Shown one piece after another: positions 16,317 to 21,385 of a stretch of DNA of 64,000 nt. The DNA is from an uncultured Clostridia bacterium. Lineage in GTDB: Bacteria > Bacillota > Clostridia > Lachnospirales > Anaerotignaceae. The notes beneath the pieces are model-generated. The model searched no databases and was not told where the DNA came from. It saw only the letters and a program-made list of their open reading frames with translations. The stretch is taken from the NCBI GenBank assembly GCA_944378105.1, contig CALWGC010000019.1, forward strand, positions 1 through 64,000. The letters are read 5' to 3'. The stretch's first letter is position 1, and every line of letters begins with the position of its first letter. The position numbers and the translations under genes were made by a program.

Positions 16317-16351
16317 AAAAAATTCCGCTTCCAAATGGAAACGGAATTTTT
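16317..16351 (-). terminator. intrinsic terminator of CDF gene 1 (minus strand)
   Basis: Read on the minus strand, AAATTCCG-TTTCC pairs with GGAAG-CGGAATTT and is followed by T-rich sequence, directly after the stop of the minus-strand gene. Confidence 0.85.
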
Positions 16352-16356
16352 GCGTT

Positions 16357-17265
16357 TTATTTTACAGGGTTTACATGTACCATGCAGTGTTTTACTTTGG
16401 TTACATGTTCTTCTACTTCTTCATGTACGGATTCTGCGATTTCGTGACCTTGTGCTACGGTCAAATCTGCATCAACAGCAATTTCCACGTCGGCATAGAC
16501 ACGAGGGCCATGCAGTCTGGTTTTCAGGTCGTCTACACGAACAACGCCAGGTACGCTATGGATGGTTTCGATGATTTCATCTACGGTTTCTTTGTCAGCA
16601 GCTGCGTCTACCAACTGTTTGAAGGAAGAAATATAGATGTCAATAGCAACTTTCAAGATCAAGAAAGCAACGATCAAGCAAGCCAATGGGTCCAGGATAG
16701 GGAAGCCGATCATAGCACCGCCGATACCGATGAAGGTACCGATGGAGGAGAAAGCGTCAGAACGGTGATGCCATGCTTCTGCTTTCAAAGCTTCACTCTG
16801 AATTCTCTTTGCAACACGAACGGTATAGTGGTACATCCATTCTTTTACAACGATGGACAAAACGGCAGCAAACAAAGCCAGACCAGTTGGTGTGGTAAAT
16901 TCGCCGCTCATGATGGTTTTTACTGCATTTACAGCCAGAGTTACACCTACGGAACCAAGGATGATGGCCAAAATTTTTGCTACAGCAGATTCGATTCTTT
17001 CATGACCATATGGGTGAGAAGAGTCGTCCGGTTTGGAAGCAAAGAAAAGACCGATGATTACAATAATGGTTGCCAAAATATCGCTGGCAGAGTGAATACC
17101 GTCAGAAATCATTGCGGCAGAATGACCTACAAAACCAGCAATGATTTTGAAAGTTGACAAAAATAAGTTAACAACAATACTTACACGGTTTACTTTATCC
17201 GCTTGTTTAAAGCGATCCCCTGTCAACACTTCATCACTGTGTGTTGGCCCATGCATTAGTTTCAT
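16357..17265 (-). CDS. cation diffusion facilitator (CDF) metal efflux protein, paralog 1
   Basis: Proton-coupled exporter of divalent metal from the cytoplasm, 302 aa. Six membrane segments precede a cytoplasmic ferredoxin-like domain (about residue 210 to the end). The metal-site motifs are HxxxD in TM2 (DGIHSASD) and HxxxD in TM5 (WHHRSDAFSS), a His/Asp set typical of Zn(II)-type CDFs, so zinc or a similar ion is the best inference. The N-terminal tail MKLMHGPTHSDE has only two histidines, fewer than in the two downstream paralogs. It is the first of three tandem copies with the same orientation but separate promoters and terminators. Confidence 0.93.
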   Translation of the reverse strand: MKLMHGPTHSDEVLTGDRFKQADKVNRVSIVVNLFLSTFKIIAGFVGHSAAMISDGIHSASDILATIIVIIGLFFASKPDDSSHPYGHERIESAVAKILAIILGSVGVTLAVNAVKTIMSGEFTTPTGLALFAAVLSIVVKEWMYHYTVRVAKRIQSEALKAEAWHHRSDAFSSIGTFIGIGGAMIGFPILDPLACLIVAFLILKVAIDIYISSFKQLVDAAADKETVDEIIETIHSVPGVVRVDDLKTRLHGPRVYADVEIAVDADLTVAQGHEIAESVHEEVEEHVTKVKHCMVHVNPVK

Positions 17266-17308
17266 AAAATACTATCTCCTTTCAAAACAATCTTTTGGTG
17301 AGTTCGTT

Positions 17309-17366
17309 CCCGGGTTACTGCTATTTTATGATATATGTCACATGGGAGTCAATGCTAACATTTTGT
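17309..17366 (-). promoter_or_regulatory. CDF gene 1 promoter with shared 15-bp box and CCCGGG element
   Basis: On the minus strand: box ACAAAATGTTAGCAT (17366-17352) abuts -35 TTGACT (17352-17347), 18 bp spacer, -10 TAAAAT (17328-17323), five bases, then TAACCCGGG ending at 17309. The same arrangement precedes the other two CDF genes. Confidence 0.85.
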
Positions 17367-17396
17367 AAAATTGTACTTAAAGAAATACAAAATGTG

Positions 17397-17423
17397 TTTG
17401 TTAGTTTATGCTAAACTAACAAA
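17397..17423. repeat. 27-bp perfect palindrome upstream of CDF gene 1
   Basis: Arms TTTGTTAGTTTA (17397-17408) and TAAACTAACAAA (17412-17423) are perfect inverted complements around TGC. It is 31 bp upstream of the 15-bp promoter box. A degenerate copy (GTTAGTTTATGCAAAACTTA, 19013-19032) lies about 33 bp upstream of the same box of CDF gene 2. The shape suits a dimeric metal-sensing repressor or activator of the DtxR/MntR or ArsR type, but which one is unknown. Confidence 0.85.
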
Positions 17424-17858
17424 GAAGTTAGTCTAATATACATTGAAGATTGTCTATGACTATGGAAACGGGACGAAAAAGCAGAAAAACAGTAGCAAAT
17501 CGGTGGAAAAGGAAAATAATAATTCAAAAGAGAAGGAAAACCATTGATAAAAGAATAAAAAGGGCAAAATTAGAAAAAAAGAAAGACAAAAAACAAAGAT
17601 TGTTCCATAACGTTGCTTGTGGAACAACGTGTTAAGGAAAGGGAAGACGGATTTATAAAATTAGAAAAAAATGATGAAGACAGGAAAAAAGAGGGGGAAA
17701 AGCCACTTTTAGAGACGGGATTTCTAAGGATTCAATGTGGATTCAGGCAGAAAGACATAAAAAAACCACCCATCTAAAGCGGTTTCCTAAGAAGAAAACA
17801 TTGTTTTTGTTTTTTCTTCTTGGAAATTGCGACAGCAGTCTTCAGAAGAAAATGACCT

Positions 17859-17918
17859 CAGCAAAAATAAGATGTCTGCAATCCTTTATATTTCAAGGAT
17901 CACAGACATCTTTGTTTT
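17859..17918 (-). terminator. terminator of CDF gene 2 (minus), potentially bidirectional
   Basis: AAGATGTCTG-CA-ATCCT (17869-17885) pairs with AGGAT-CA-CAGACATCTT (17896-17912). On the minus strand it is followed by TTATTTTTG, and on the plus strand by TTGTTTTC. Confidence 0.9.
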
Positions 17919-17955
17919 CTTATGAAGCTGCGCCAAAACCATGAGTAGTTTTTGT

Positions 17956-18876
17956 TTATTTTGCAGGGTTTACATGTACCATGCAGTGTTTTACTTTGGT
18001 TACATGTTCTTCTACTTCTTCATGCACGGATTCTGCAATTTCATGGCCTTGTTCAACGGTCAAAGTAGCATCAACAGCAATTTCCACGTCAGCATAGACA
18101 CGAGGACCATGCAATCTTGTTTTCAGGCTGTCAATGCGAACAACACCTGGTGTTTCGTGGATGACATGCATTATCTCGTCTTCCGTTTGTTGGTCAGCAG
18201 AACTATCTACCAGTTGTTTAAAGGAAGTAATATAAATATCGATTGCAACTTTCAATACCAAAATAGCAACGATCAAGCAAGCAATTGGATCTAAAATTGG
18301 AAAACCAATCATAGCACCGCCAATACCAATAAACGTACCAACGGAAGAAAGTGCATCAGAACGATGATGCCAAGCATCTGCTTTCATAGCAGCACTATCG
18401 ATTTCTTTGGCTGTGTGCAGGGTAAAATGGTACATCCGTTCTTTGACAACGATAGACAATACAGCGGCAGACAGGGCCAAGGCCGTAGGTGTAGCATAGT
18501 CTCCGCTCATGATTTTTTCCACGGCATCAACACCCAGCATAACAGCCGTAAAACCAAGCATAATGGCTAAAATTTTTGCCACAGCAGACTCGATTCGTTC
18601 ATGGCCATAAGGGTGGCTTTTGTCGTCTGGTTTAGAGGAAAAGAACATCCCAATCATAACGACGATGGTGGAAAGTACGTCACTACCAGAATGGATACCG
18701 TCGGAAATCATGGCAGCACTATGACCAATGACACCAGCGAGAATTTTGAAAATCGAAAGAACAATATTCACCAAAAGACTAATTTTATTTACTCTGTCTG
18801 CTTTTTTGAACCGGTCGCCAGTTAACGTTTCGGCGGGACCGTGATCATGACCATGAGGTCCATGCATTAATTTCAT
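17956..18876 (-). CDS. cation diffusion facilitator (CDF) metal efflux protein, paralog 2
   Basis: Second copy of the tandem CDF set, 306 aa, closely similar along its length to paralogs 1 and 3. TM2 has DGIHSGSD and TM5 WHHRSDALSS, so the HxxxD/HxxxD metal site is intact. The N-terminal tail MKLMHGPHGHDHGPAE is the most histidine-rich of the three (four His within the first ten or so residues), a likely metal-binding or sensing tail. The C-terminal domain ends CMVHVNPAK as in paralog 1. It has its own promoter with the common 15-bp box (one change in its -35, TCGACT) and its own terminator. Confidence 0.93.
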   Translation of the reverse strand: MKLMHGPHGHDHGPAETLTGDRFKKADRVNKISLLVNIVLSIFKILAGVIGHSAAMISDGIHSGSDVLSTIVVMIGMFFSSKPDDKSHPYGHERIESAVAKILAIMLGFTAVMLGVDAVEKIMSGDYATPTALALSAAVLSIVVKERMYHFTLHTAKEIDSAAMKADAWHHRSDALSSVGTFIGIGGAMIGFPILDPIACLIVAILVLKVAIDIYITSFKQLVDSSADQQTEDEIMHVIHETPGVVRIDSLKTRLHGPRVYADVEIAVDATLTVEQGHEIAESVHEEVEEHVTKVKHCMVHVNPAK

Positions 18877-18921
18877 AAAAGAAATCCCCTTTCAAAATAA
18901 TAAATTATGATTCCTTCCAAA

Positions 18922-18979
18922 CCCAGGTTATCCCTATTCTATGTCAAAAAGCATAAAAGAGTCGATGCTAACATTTTGT
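18922..18979 (-). promoter_or_regulatory. CDF gene 2 promoter with shared 15-bp box
   Basis: Minus strand: box ACAAAATGTTAGCAT (18979-18965), -35 TCGACT (18965-18960), 18 bp spacer, -10 TAGAAT (18941-18936), five bases, TAACCTGGG ending at 18922. It is weaker than copies 1 and 3 in both hexamers. Confidence 0.8.
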
Positions 18980-19195
18980 TAGATTTGAAATATAAAATGG
19001 GCATATTTAAGTGTTAGTTTATGCAAAACTTATAATAAAGAACGGGGAATATCCAATTTCTGTATTTTTCTATTTGGTATTTTGCTGTGAAAATGATAAA
19101 AAATCGTATATGTTTTGTATTTCCTATTATTTCGCTGAAAATGGGTGGAAAATCAGAATATTTTGGATTATTTGGCAGATGGAAAGGGAAAAGAA

Positions 19196-19227
19196 AAGGA
19201 CGCCTTTTCGTTAGAAAAAGCGTCCTT
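19196..19227 (-). terminator. intrinsic terminator of CDF gene 3 (minus strand)
   Basis: AAGGACGCCTTTT pairs with AAAAAGCGTCCTT. Read on the minus strand, the tract after the stem is TTTCTTTTCC. Confidence 0.85.
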
Positions 19228-19277
19228 GTTTGAGAAAGAGAAATTGTATTGGAAAAAATACAACATGAGTTTGCAAT

Positions 19278-20192
19278 TTATCTTGCTGGATTGACATGAA
19301 CGGTGCAATGTTTCACCTTTGGCACGTGTTCTTCGATTTCTTCATGAACGGCCTCTGCAATTTCATGTGCTTCGATGACGTTCATCAATGGTTCTACAGC
19401 GATTTCTACGTCAGCATAAATCCGAGGACCATGAAGTCTGGTTTTCAGGCTGTCCACACGCACAACGCCAGACACTTCATGGATGGCATGCATCATTTCT
19501 TCTTGCACATCTTTATCAGCAGCGCAGTCTACCAGCTGTTTGAAAGAAACAATATAAATATCCACTGCCACTTTGAAGACCATCAAAGCAACGATCAAGC
19601 AGGCGATTGGGTCCAAAATAGGCAAACCAATCATAGCGCCGCCAATACCGATGAAGGTACCAATGGAGGAGAAAGCATCGGAACGATGGTGCCAAGCGTC
19701 GGCTTTCATGGCTTCACTGTTGATGGCTTTGGCTGTGTGCATGGTATAGTGATACATCCATTCTTTTACCACAATGGAGATAACAGCAGCAGCCAATGCG
19801 ATGGCCGTTGGCGTGGTATAGTCGCCGCTGATGATTTTTTCTACGGCGTCGGTTGCCAAATGGAATGCCGTAAAACCAAGCATAATGGCCAAGATTTTTG
19901 CTACAGCAGATTCGATTCTTTCATGGCCATAAGGATGGGATTCATCCTCTGGTTTGGAAGAAAAGAACATACCAATCATAACGACGATGGTAGAAAGTAC
20001 GTCGCTGGCGGTATGAATACCGTCGGAGATCATGGCAGCACTTTTGCCGACAACGCCGGCAAAGATTTTGCCAACGGCAAGGATCAAATTGACTGCCAAA
20101 GAAATTTTATTTACCCGATCCGCTTTTTTCCACCGATCCCCAGTTAAGTGTTCTTCCGGACCATGTTCGTGTGGGCCGTGCATCAATTTCAT
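19278..20192 (-). CDS. cation diffusion facilitator (CDF) metal efflux protein, paralog 3
   Basis: Third tandem CDF paralog, 304 aa. Metal-site motifs are DGIHTASD (TM2) and WHHRSDAFSS (TM5), both intact. The N-terminal tail MKLMHGPHEHGPEEHL has four histidines spaced with glutamates. Its cytoplasmic domain differs most from the other two (MNVIEAHEIAEAVHEEIEEH where the others have TVEQGHEIAESVHEEVEEH), which suggests divergence in regulation or partner rather than transport. GGAAAGGGGA is the ribosome site. Promoter architecture is as for copies 1 and 2. Confidence 0.93.
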   Translation of the reverse strand: MKLMHGPHEHGPEEHLTGDRWKKADRVNKISLAVNLILAVGKIFAGVVGKSAAMISDGIHTASDVLSTIVVMIGMFFSSKPEDESHPYGHERIESAVAKILAIMLGFTAFHLATDAVEKIISGDYTTPTAIALAAAVISIVVKEWMYHYTMHTAKAINSEAMKADAWHHRSDAFSSIGTFIGIGGAMIGLPILDPIACLIVALMVFKVAVDIYIVSFKQLVDCAADKDVQEEMMHAIHEVSGVVRVDSLKTRLHGPRIYADVEIAVEPLMNVIEAHEIAEAVHEEIEEHVPKVKHCTVHVNPAR

Positions 20193-20241
20193 AGAAGTAA
20201 TCCCCTTTCCAACAAAATTGTAAAATTCATATGATATCCAT

Positions 20242-20299
20242 CCCGGGATATTGTTATTTTATGACAGTGGTTTGGGAGAAGTCAATGCTAACATTTTGT
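20242..20299 (-). promoter_or_regulatory. CDF gene 3 promoter with shared 15-bp box
   Basis: Minus strand: box ACAAAATGTTAGCAT (20299-20285), -35 TTGACT (20285-20280), 18 bp spacer, -10 TAAAAT (20261-20256), five bases, TATCCCGGG ending at 20242. Confidence 0.85.
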
Positions 20300-20389
20300 G
20301 CAAAAACGTTGAAAAATTACAGAACAAAATAGAATAATTGTCCACTAACCACAAAATGCCATGGAACTGTTTTGTAAAAAAAGATTGGG

Positions 20390-20418
20390 TTTACCAGAGT
20401 AAGTTACTATGATATACT
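20390..20418 (+). promoter_or_regulatory. promoter of the cysteine synthase gene
   Basis: TTTACC (20390-20395), 17 bp spacer, TATACT (20413-20418), then AAGGAGG close before the ATG. No T-box or SAM riboswitch is visible. Confidence 0.7.
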
Positions 20419-20446
20419 GGAGCAAAAGAGATAAGGAGGTATCGTT

Positions 20447-21385
20447 ATGGCTCAGATCAAAAACAGTTTGATGGAATGCATTGGCAACACGCCGCTGGTT
20501 CGATTGGGCGGCTGGATGAAAAAACAAGGGGTGGAGGCAGAACTGCTGGCCAAGGTGGAATCGTTCAATCCCTTGGGGTCGGCCAAGGACCGGGCGGCTT
20601 ACTATATGATGGAAGACGCCAAGGAAGCGGGAATTTTGAAAGAAGACACGGTGATTATCGAGCCAACCAGCGGCAATACCGGCGTTGGGCTGGCCTTTTT
20701 GGCTGCCATTGGCGGATATCGGTTGATTTTGACGATGCCAGAAACCATGAGCATAGAACGGCGCAAGCTGTTACAGATGCTGGGGGCAGAGATTGTATTG
20801 ACCGAAGGCAAAAAGGGCATGAGCGGGGCCATTGAGAAGGCGCAGGAATTGGCCCAATCCTTTGCCAGTGCTTGGATTCCCAACCAATTTGAAAACCCTT
20901 CCAATGCCAAGGCCCATGTTTGCACCACAGGGCCAGAGATTTGGCGGGACACCGATGGAAAGGTGGACGTGTTTGTGGCCGGGGTTGGCACAGGCGGCAC
21001 GTTGACGGGGGTTGGAACGGTTTTAAAAGAAAAAAATCCAGCGGTGGAAATTGTGGCCGTAGAACCGTTTGGCAGTGCCGTTTTAAGTGGCGAAGCAGCA
21101 GGTCCCCATGGGTTACAGGGCATTGGGGCCGGGTTTGTGCCGGGCGTATTAAAGACGGATTTGATTGACCGGGTGGTTAAAGTCAAAGACGAAGAAGCGC
21201 TGAAAACAGGCCAGGAAGTGGCCAAGACCGACGGGCTTTTGGTTGGTATCTCTTCGGCGGCAGCTTTGTTTGCCGCCACACAGTTGGCCAAAGATCCTGC
21301 ATACAAGGGAAAAACCATTGTGGTTTTGTTGCCAGATACAGGGGAACGCTATCTTTCCACGGCACTTTTTGATGAAACGAAATGA
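20447..21385 (+). CDS. cysK: cysteine synthase (O-acetylserine sulfhydrylase) family
   Basis: Fold-type II PLP enzyme making cysteine from O-acetylserine and sulfide, 312 aa. The N-terminus NSLMECIGNTPLVRLGG is typical, and the PLP lysine sits in NPLGSAKDRAA (usually NPxGSVKDR). PTSGNTGVGLAF is the asparagine loop and GTGGTLTGVG the phosphate loop. The motif set is that of CysK/CysM; cystathionine beta-synthase of the short type cannot be excluded by eye. It is monocistronic with its own promoter and an AAGGAGG ribosome site, divergent from the CDF genes. Confidence 0.92.
   Translation: MAQIKNSLMECIGNTPLVRLGGWMKKQGVEAELLAKVESFNPLGSAKDRAAYYMMEDAKEAGILKEDTVIIEPTSGNTGVGLAFLAAIGGYRLILTMPETMSIERRKLLQMLGAEIVLTEGKKGMSGAIEKAQELAQSFASAWIPNQFENPSNAKAHVCTTGPEIWRDTDGKVDVFVAGVGTGGTLTGVGTVLKEKNPAVEIVAVEPFGSAVLSGEAAGPHGLQGIGAGFVPGVLKTDLIDRVVKVKDEEALKTGQEVAKTDGLLVGISSAAALFAATQLAKDPAYKGKTIVVLLPDTGERYLSTALFDETK

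Follow-up and report, generated by a model that had tools for sequence, protein, structure and literature searches.

Three metal exporter genes of the CDF family, lying in tandem behind promoters that share one short box, raise the question of what controls them and why they are kept together. They are found in a 64,000-nucleotide stretch of DNA from an uncultured Clostridia bacterium of the Anaerotignaceae (assembly GCA_944378105.1, contig CALWGC010000019.1, positions 1 to 64,000), referred to here as the window. Our preferred answer, to which we assign a probability of roughly 60%, is that the triplet is governed by a single DtxR-family metalloregulator, which would repress iron import and activate the three exporters when metal is in surplus. 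Direct DtxR-type regulation of the CDF genes is well supported by their promoter sequences; we infer activation, iron over manganese as the signal, iron as the exported ion and the identity of the binding protein. The genes are:

16357-17265, minus strand: CDF gene 1 (302 aa; PF01545 152.8 bits, PF16916 80.5 bits)
17956-18876, minus strand: CDF gene 2 (306 aa; PF01545 151.6 bits)
19278-20192, minus strand: CDF gene 3 (304 aa; PF01545 163.1 bits)

Open reading frames (ORFs) and matches to PF01545 and PF16916, which far exceed the cut-offs in all three, bear out a preliminary description of the locus as holding three full-length, intact paralogues in tandem on the minus strand. No other gene in the 2.04 Mb genome matches PF01545.

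Operators at the CDF promoters

Each gene had been described as carrying an identical 15-bp box fused to the -35, an 18-bp spacer and a -10. The 15-mer (ACAAAATGTTAGCAT) indeed has exactly three copies in the window and in the genome, each overlapping the -35 of one CDF gene. However, the invariant block is longer (ACAAAATGTTAGCATnGACT) and extends through the -35, which reads TTGACT, or TCGACT in the middle gene. Both the -10 (TAAAAT or TAGAAT) and the spacing of 18 bp were confirmed. All other genomic matches have at least 2 mismatches (2-3 in the next best) and are no commoner than matches to a reversed control pattern; the 15-mer thus marks CDF promoters only and does not recur at random sites. 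Used alone as a genome-wide regulon motif, the box yielded no further site above chance and was set aside.

The 15-mer represents one half of a TTAG-N6-CTAA operator of the DtxR type that is fused to the -35 (TTAGCATTGACT); we call this degenerate operator box A. The preliminary description had overlooked a second, better operator 56-57 bp upstream, box B, and some copies have a third candidate, box C, between the two. Ranks below refer to a family matrix of 119 sites, none of them at a CDF gene, scanned over about 64,000 window positions.

17345-17358, minus strand: box A of gene 1, TTAGCATTGACTCC, a degenerate operator (-35 at 17347-17352, 15-mer at 17352-17366; rank 5)
17323-17328, minus strand: -10 of gene 1, TAAAAT
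18958-18971, minus strand: box A of gene 2, TTAGCATCGACTCT (-35 at 18960-18965, 15-mer at 18965-18979; rank 6)
18936-18941, minus strand: -10 of gene 2, TAGAAT
20278-20291, minus strand: box A of gene 3, TTAGCATTGACTTC (-35 at 20280-20285, 15-mer at 20285-20299; rank 19)
20256-20261, minus strand: -10 of gene 3, TAAAAT
17401-17419, no strand: box B of gene 1, TTAGTTTATGCTAAACTAA, a perfect TTAG-N6-CTAA at 17401-17414 (rank 1) and, 5 bp beyond it, a one-mismatch site at 17406-17419 (rank 4)
19014-19027, no strand: box B of gene 2, TTAGTTTATGCAAA, with one mismatch (rank 2), 56 bp from box A
20335-20348, no strand: weak box B of gene 3, minus-strand sequence TTAGTGGACAATTA (rank 26), 57 bp from box A
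18979-18992, no strand: possible box C of gene 2, weak, 21 bp upstream of box A (rank 83)

Box B of gene 1 is embedded in a palindrome (17397-17423) with perfect 12-bp arms (17397-17408 and 17412-17423) that contains TTAGTTTATGCTAA. Box C is still weaker at gene 1 (17366-17379) and absent at gene 3. With an earlier matrix built from nine of the genome's own sites, box A ranked 16-48, compared with 5-19 for the family matrix; since the copies are paralogous, the ranks of the three genes are not independent tests. Co-regulation of the three genes, as first proposed, is strongly supported, boxes A and B being among the best-scoring operators in the window, and it now has a likely regulator. Box B of gene 3 lies in a divergent intergenic region (20300-20447) common to a cysteine-synthase-like gene (start 20447), which has its own promoter-like site at 20390-20418 and could be affected too.

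The boxes have been kept while the DNA between them has largely diverged. The distance from A to B is 56, 56 and 57 bp at genes 1, 2 and 3, and 56 and 57 bp in a sister species (L034/L005), where exact box A precedes both CDF genes and a weak box B stands in the same place as that of gene 3. The sister orthologue of gene 1 has boxes A and B and a good box C 21 bp upstream of A. Counting both species, five promoters hold exact box A, and box A also occurs in other genera: two loci of another genus (L008 and L011) have it fused to TTGACT with a second site exactly 21 bp upstream, the offset at which the sister species has its strong box C; L009 and L010 carry a full site, TTAGTATTGACTAA, on the -35; and a Lachnospiraceae relative (L062) has box A as well. 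Among the 58 family genomes, all seven box A matches with at most one mismatch lie about 90-106 bp before a CDF gene. Box A is thus retained in orthologous promoters, yet many CDF relatives in other clades are without it. A box A that is palindromic throughout, AGTTAGTCAATGCTAACT (opposite strand AGTTAGCATTGACTAACT), occurs at a locus of another genus (L210, 2004-2021).

Could the identical box be a leftover of promoter duplication with no regulatory role? The genes are paralogous and their promoters would have been copied along with them, but the copies are only 72-78% identical and the intervening DNA has diverged around the retained boxes, and in other genera box A precedes CDF genes whose proteins share 57% identity. 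This explanation is already contradicted, and we give it next to no weight.

Operator position and the direction of control

The perfect operator TTAG-N6-CTAA is rare, occurring only 16 times in the genome and always in intergenic DNA (34 matches for the reversed control). Two of the sites lie at flavodoxin genes, two at feoA-feoB, three at a DUF2325-DUF3793 operon beside a DtxR-family gene and one at the CDF triplet; two more belong to a locus where an AraC-type gene is accompanied by DUF6110 and a heavy-metal P-type ATPase. A few others, which may be there by chance, adjoin LysR, AraC, purM-like and peptidase genes. An extended form, AGTTAGN6CTAACT, was found in 42 of the 58 family genomes, spread over 15 of the 17 genera; the reversed control gave few matches. 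Around these extended operators we read 67 loci, in which 70 of 74 sites fall outside ORFs of at least 150 aa and the neighbours recognised most often are DUF2325-DUF3793-flavodoxin operons (for example L152, 3799-4649, and many further loci across the family), feoB and relatives of the DtxR-like gene described below. The idea that one genus (g13) had lost the operator along with the CDF box was dropped, as its feoB loci keep TTAG-N6-CTAA-like sites.

Two further observations concern the operator's neighbours. At L175 (3622-7472), two operators lie by an AraC-type gene with the DUF6110 protein and heavy-metal P-type ATPase downstream, and at L224 operators precede the same pair; the N-terminal tail of the L175 ATPase may resemble those of ferrosome-type ATPases. 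A perfect, self-complementary operator at L173 (3511-3524, TTAGTTTAAACTAA) precedes the gene of a PreP-like M16 peptidase, which may be another target.

Operator position differs between uptake and export genes. At feoA, flavodoxin and DUF2325 the site lies on or just past the -10, and of the 50 non-CDF sites across the family for which a promoter could be recognised, 37 have their centre at 0 to +19, compared with 6 of 48 random positions in the same loci. This is a repressor position, unlike that of the CDF sites, which lie on or upstream of the -35: measured from the start predicted via the -10, box A is centred at about -35.5, its right half merged with the -35, box C at about -56.5 and box B at about -91.5.

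The same division is known from characterized DtxR-family regulons. IdeR-repressed genes have the box at the -10 or the start, while IdeR-activated bfrB has four upstream boxes, one overlapping the -35 (PMC10317159). MntR activates mneP through four dimers, bound to 18-bp sites that are separated by 1 bp and of which site 1 overlaps the -35 (PMC11275975). In C. glutamicum, DtxR is a repressor of iron uptake and, from sites upstream of the -35, an activator of storage genes (PMC1382209). The promoter type of mneP and bfrB, with several upstream sites and one on the -35, is clear at genes 1 and 2, and at gene 3 the second site is weak. Given these precedents and the site positions, activation is the best reading of the CDF promoters.

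The MntR and the IdeR/DtxR precedents also differ from this locus. Like the Bacillus subtilis MntR-mneP/mneS system (PMC11275975, PMC9993123), the triplet consists of CDF exporters with several DtxR-family sites upstream, one of them on the -35, and a half-site geometry of 6 bp between cores. However, the core is TTAG/CTAA rather than the MntR core, the spacing is 21 bp (A to C) and 56-57 bp (A to B), and the operators are shared with feoAB and flavodoxin rather than manganese importers; the likeness is one of promoters and assumes no orthology of the transporters. As for the actinobacterial IdeR/DtxR regulon (PMC10317159, PMC8464063, PMC1382209), TTAG-N6-CTAA matches the IdeR box in its one-dimer geometry, and the placing of sites is alike, at the -10 or start for repression and upstream, with one on the -35 (bfrB), for activation, whereas here the regulator is short and without an SH3 domain, the targets are CDF exporters rather than ferritins and the lineage is Clostridia. 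Compared with the 14-bp one-dimer core of the DtxR/IdeR operator (TTAGGNNNNCCTAA; PMC8464063), box B of gene 1 has the TTAG-N6-CTAA geometry, with T, A or C at the flanking G/C positions of the half-sites; the G that follows TTAG in the IdeR box is T or C here.

A regulator that instead repressed the CDF genes, with box A covering the -35, strikes us as improbable. Bound alone at -35.5, box A would compete with RNA polymerase; yet exporters would then be switched off at high metal, the family's repressor sites lie past the -10, and in the IdeR and MntR systems it is activation that comes from upstream arrays of several sites, one of them on the -35.

Candidate regulators and the signal metal

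Two DtxR-family proteins are encoded in the genome, here called C20 (L118; encoded on contig C20) and C16 (L117). C20, the most likely regulator, is a short protein of 149 aa with PF01325 and PF02742 only and no C-terminal SH3-like domain. It has Met, Cys, Glu and His as the primary ligands of DtxR (M10, C102, E105 and H106); in its relatives Asn or Asp replaces the Met, and Cys-Glu-His is kept. It also has Asp27, which MntR needs in order to activate. Three operators occupy the intergenic region before the C20 gene, common to the divergent DUF2325 operon, and relatives of C20 often adjoin the operator-carrying operon. C16 is nearer to MntR, with Asp8, and has no operator at its promoter. Both proteins score below the MntR equivalog cut-offs of 153 (86 and 95 bits), and at MntR positions 8 and 99 C16 has D8 and C99 and C20 has M8 and C99.

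A classical Fur was discarded as the regulator, the only Fur-family protein being nearest to PerR. In this family of uncultured Clostridia, a short, SH3-less DtxR-type protein may be the global iron regulator, repressing feoAB, flavodoxin and DUF2325-DUF3793 and activating a ferrous-iron CDF triplet, a proposal that we hold tentatively, at somewhat short of even odds. In the mechanism we favour, abundant metal, probably Fe2+, would load C20 dimers onto TTAG-N6-CTAA operators. Dimers sitting at or just after the -10, as at feoAB, flavodoxin and the DUF2325-DUF3793 operon, would block transcription; at the CDF promoters, dimers on boxes B (about -91) and A (-35.5), joined in some copies by one on box C (about -56), would help RNA polymerase to start, so that the exporters would be made under metal excess.

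The same circuit could run on manganese as both signal and cargo, with an MntR-like protein (C16 or C20) activating MneP-like exporters. The mneP/mneS architecture is the closest match to these promoters, C16 has Asp8 and is nearest to MntR, and the short domain build is MntR-like. However, the operators are found at feoAB and flavodoxin, which are classical low-iron genes, the genome has no Nramp gene (a manganese-regulon marker), both DtxR-family proteins have Cys at the position of MntR Glu99, and the C16 gene has no operator. Iron is the likelier signal. The manganese version is less likely, but it gains from two reports: MneP and MneS, the CDF exporters under MntR control, export iron as well (PMC9993123), and SH3-less DtxR proteins have so far been said not to be iron-responsive in vivo (PMC7762939).

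This last report also weighs against iron-dependent control of the triplet by a DtxR-family activator, as do several features of the locus itself. The right half of box A matches poorly, leaving only one half-site of the DtxR/IdeR core, and repression, too, can come from a site with its centre on the -35. Box B is weak at gene 3, box C is weak at genes 1 and 2 and absent at gene 3, and the A-B spacing of 56-57 bp is no multiple of 21. The metal tetrad H-D-H-D of the transporters does not point to iron, and C16 could be the binder instead of C20. Finally, most CDF relatives outside one clade are without the boxes, so the link is limited to that clade and L062. Our literature search found no DtxR-controlled iron exporter in Firmicutes, which is weak evidence as its coverage was partial.

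Transporters, copy number and further elements

The three CDF proteins score 239-246 bits with TIGR01297 (cut-off 82) and share PF01545 and PF16916 with FieF/YiiP, MamB/MamM and MntE, but reach none of the NCBIfam equivalog cut-offs for FieF, MamB, MamM, MntE or Cdf31. The best named models are MamB and MamM (203-222 bits, against a MamB cut-off of 350), with FieF, MntE and Cdf31 below them. Aligned to the FieF sequence, all three copies and nearly all relatives have the membrane metal tetrad H-D-H-D, while FieF/YiiP has D-D-H-D (D45-D49-H153-D157), and where FieF has two C-terminal histidines all three have D and E. The exported metal is thus not fixed by residues of the predicted sites. All eleven metal-site positions compared with FieF are identical in the three copies, and division of labour between metals, one of the two reasons originally suggested for keeping three (dosage selection, the other, may apply), was dropped for lack of support. 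The copies do differ, as first noted, in their N-terminal tails, which have two, four and four histidines.

Three copies are kept in this species, as described, but the sister species has two, orthologous to genes 3 and 1 (96% and 92% identity), so three are no fixed requirement. In the CDF tree that had been called for, a quick one, gene 2 is sister to the gene-3 pair (SH-aLRT 95). The closest paralogues are 78% identical compared with 92-96% for the orthologues, which dates both duplications before the species split; most simply, then, the sister species would have lost gene 2. A tandem CDF pair in another taxonomic family (L012, genome G029) falls outside the clade of the window genes and is a separate case.

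Further elements of the locus are:

17307-17317, minus strand: CCCGGG palindrome of gene 1, TAACCCGGGAA, at the predicted transcription start
18920-18930, minus strand: CCCGGG palindrome of gene 2, TAACCTGGGTT, at the predicted transcription start
20240-20250, minus strand: CCCGGG palindrome of gene 3, TATCCCGGGAT, at the predicted transcription start
16318-16351, minus strand: hairpin after gene 1, a possible terminator
17869-17912, minus strand: terminator after gene 2 (18 pairs)
19196-19227, minus strand: terminator after gene 3 (14 pairs)

The palindrome, TA[AT]CC[CT]GGG[AT][AT], is present at the three genes and both sister-species promoters and nowhere else in the window (0.29 expected); unexplained by the DtxR-type operator, it is perhaps the site of a second regulator. 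The claim that each gene has its own terminator holds for genes 2 and 3, where the terminators are strong; gene 1 has only the hairpin, absent from the list of the terminator scan. An Rfam search of the locus gave nothing near any gathering score, so it contains no known riboswitch. At L009 and L010, the stretch from promoter to CDF gene holds a hairpin with a T run behind it (GGGACAATTTTTT...AAATTGTCCC), which may be an attenuator.

The promoter architecture of the triplet is real and conserved, and is a variant of a known metal homeostasis circuit. The mechanism of DtxR/IdeR activation and the role of single-dimer sites are listed as open questions (PMC10317159), for which the CDF promoters offer natural test cases. 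The operator at DUF2325-DUF3793-flavodoxin operons points to a low-iron role for both of these uncharacterised DUF families. In gut-type Clostridia that have a PerR-like protein as their only Fur-family member, little is known of how iron is exported and how this is controlled; for them the locus suggests a testable operator code, in which the same site would repress uptake when placed after the -10 and activate export when placed at the -35.

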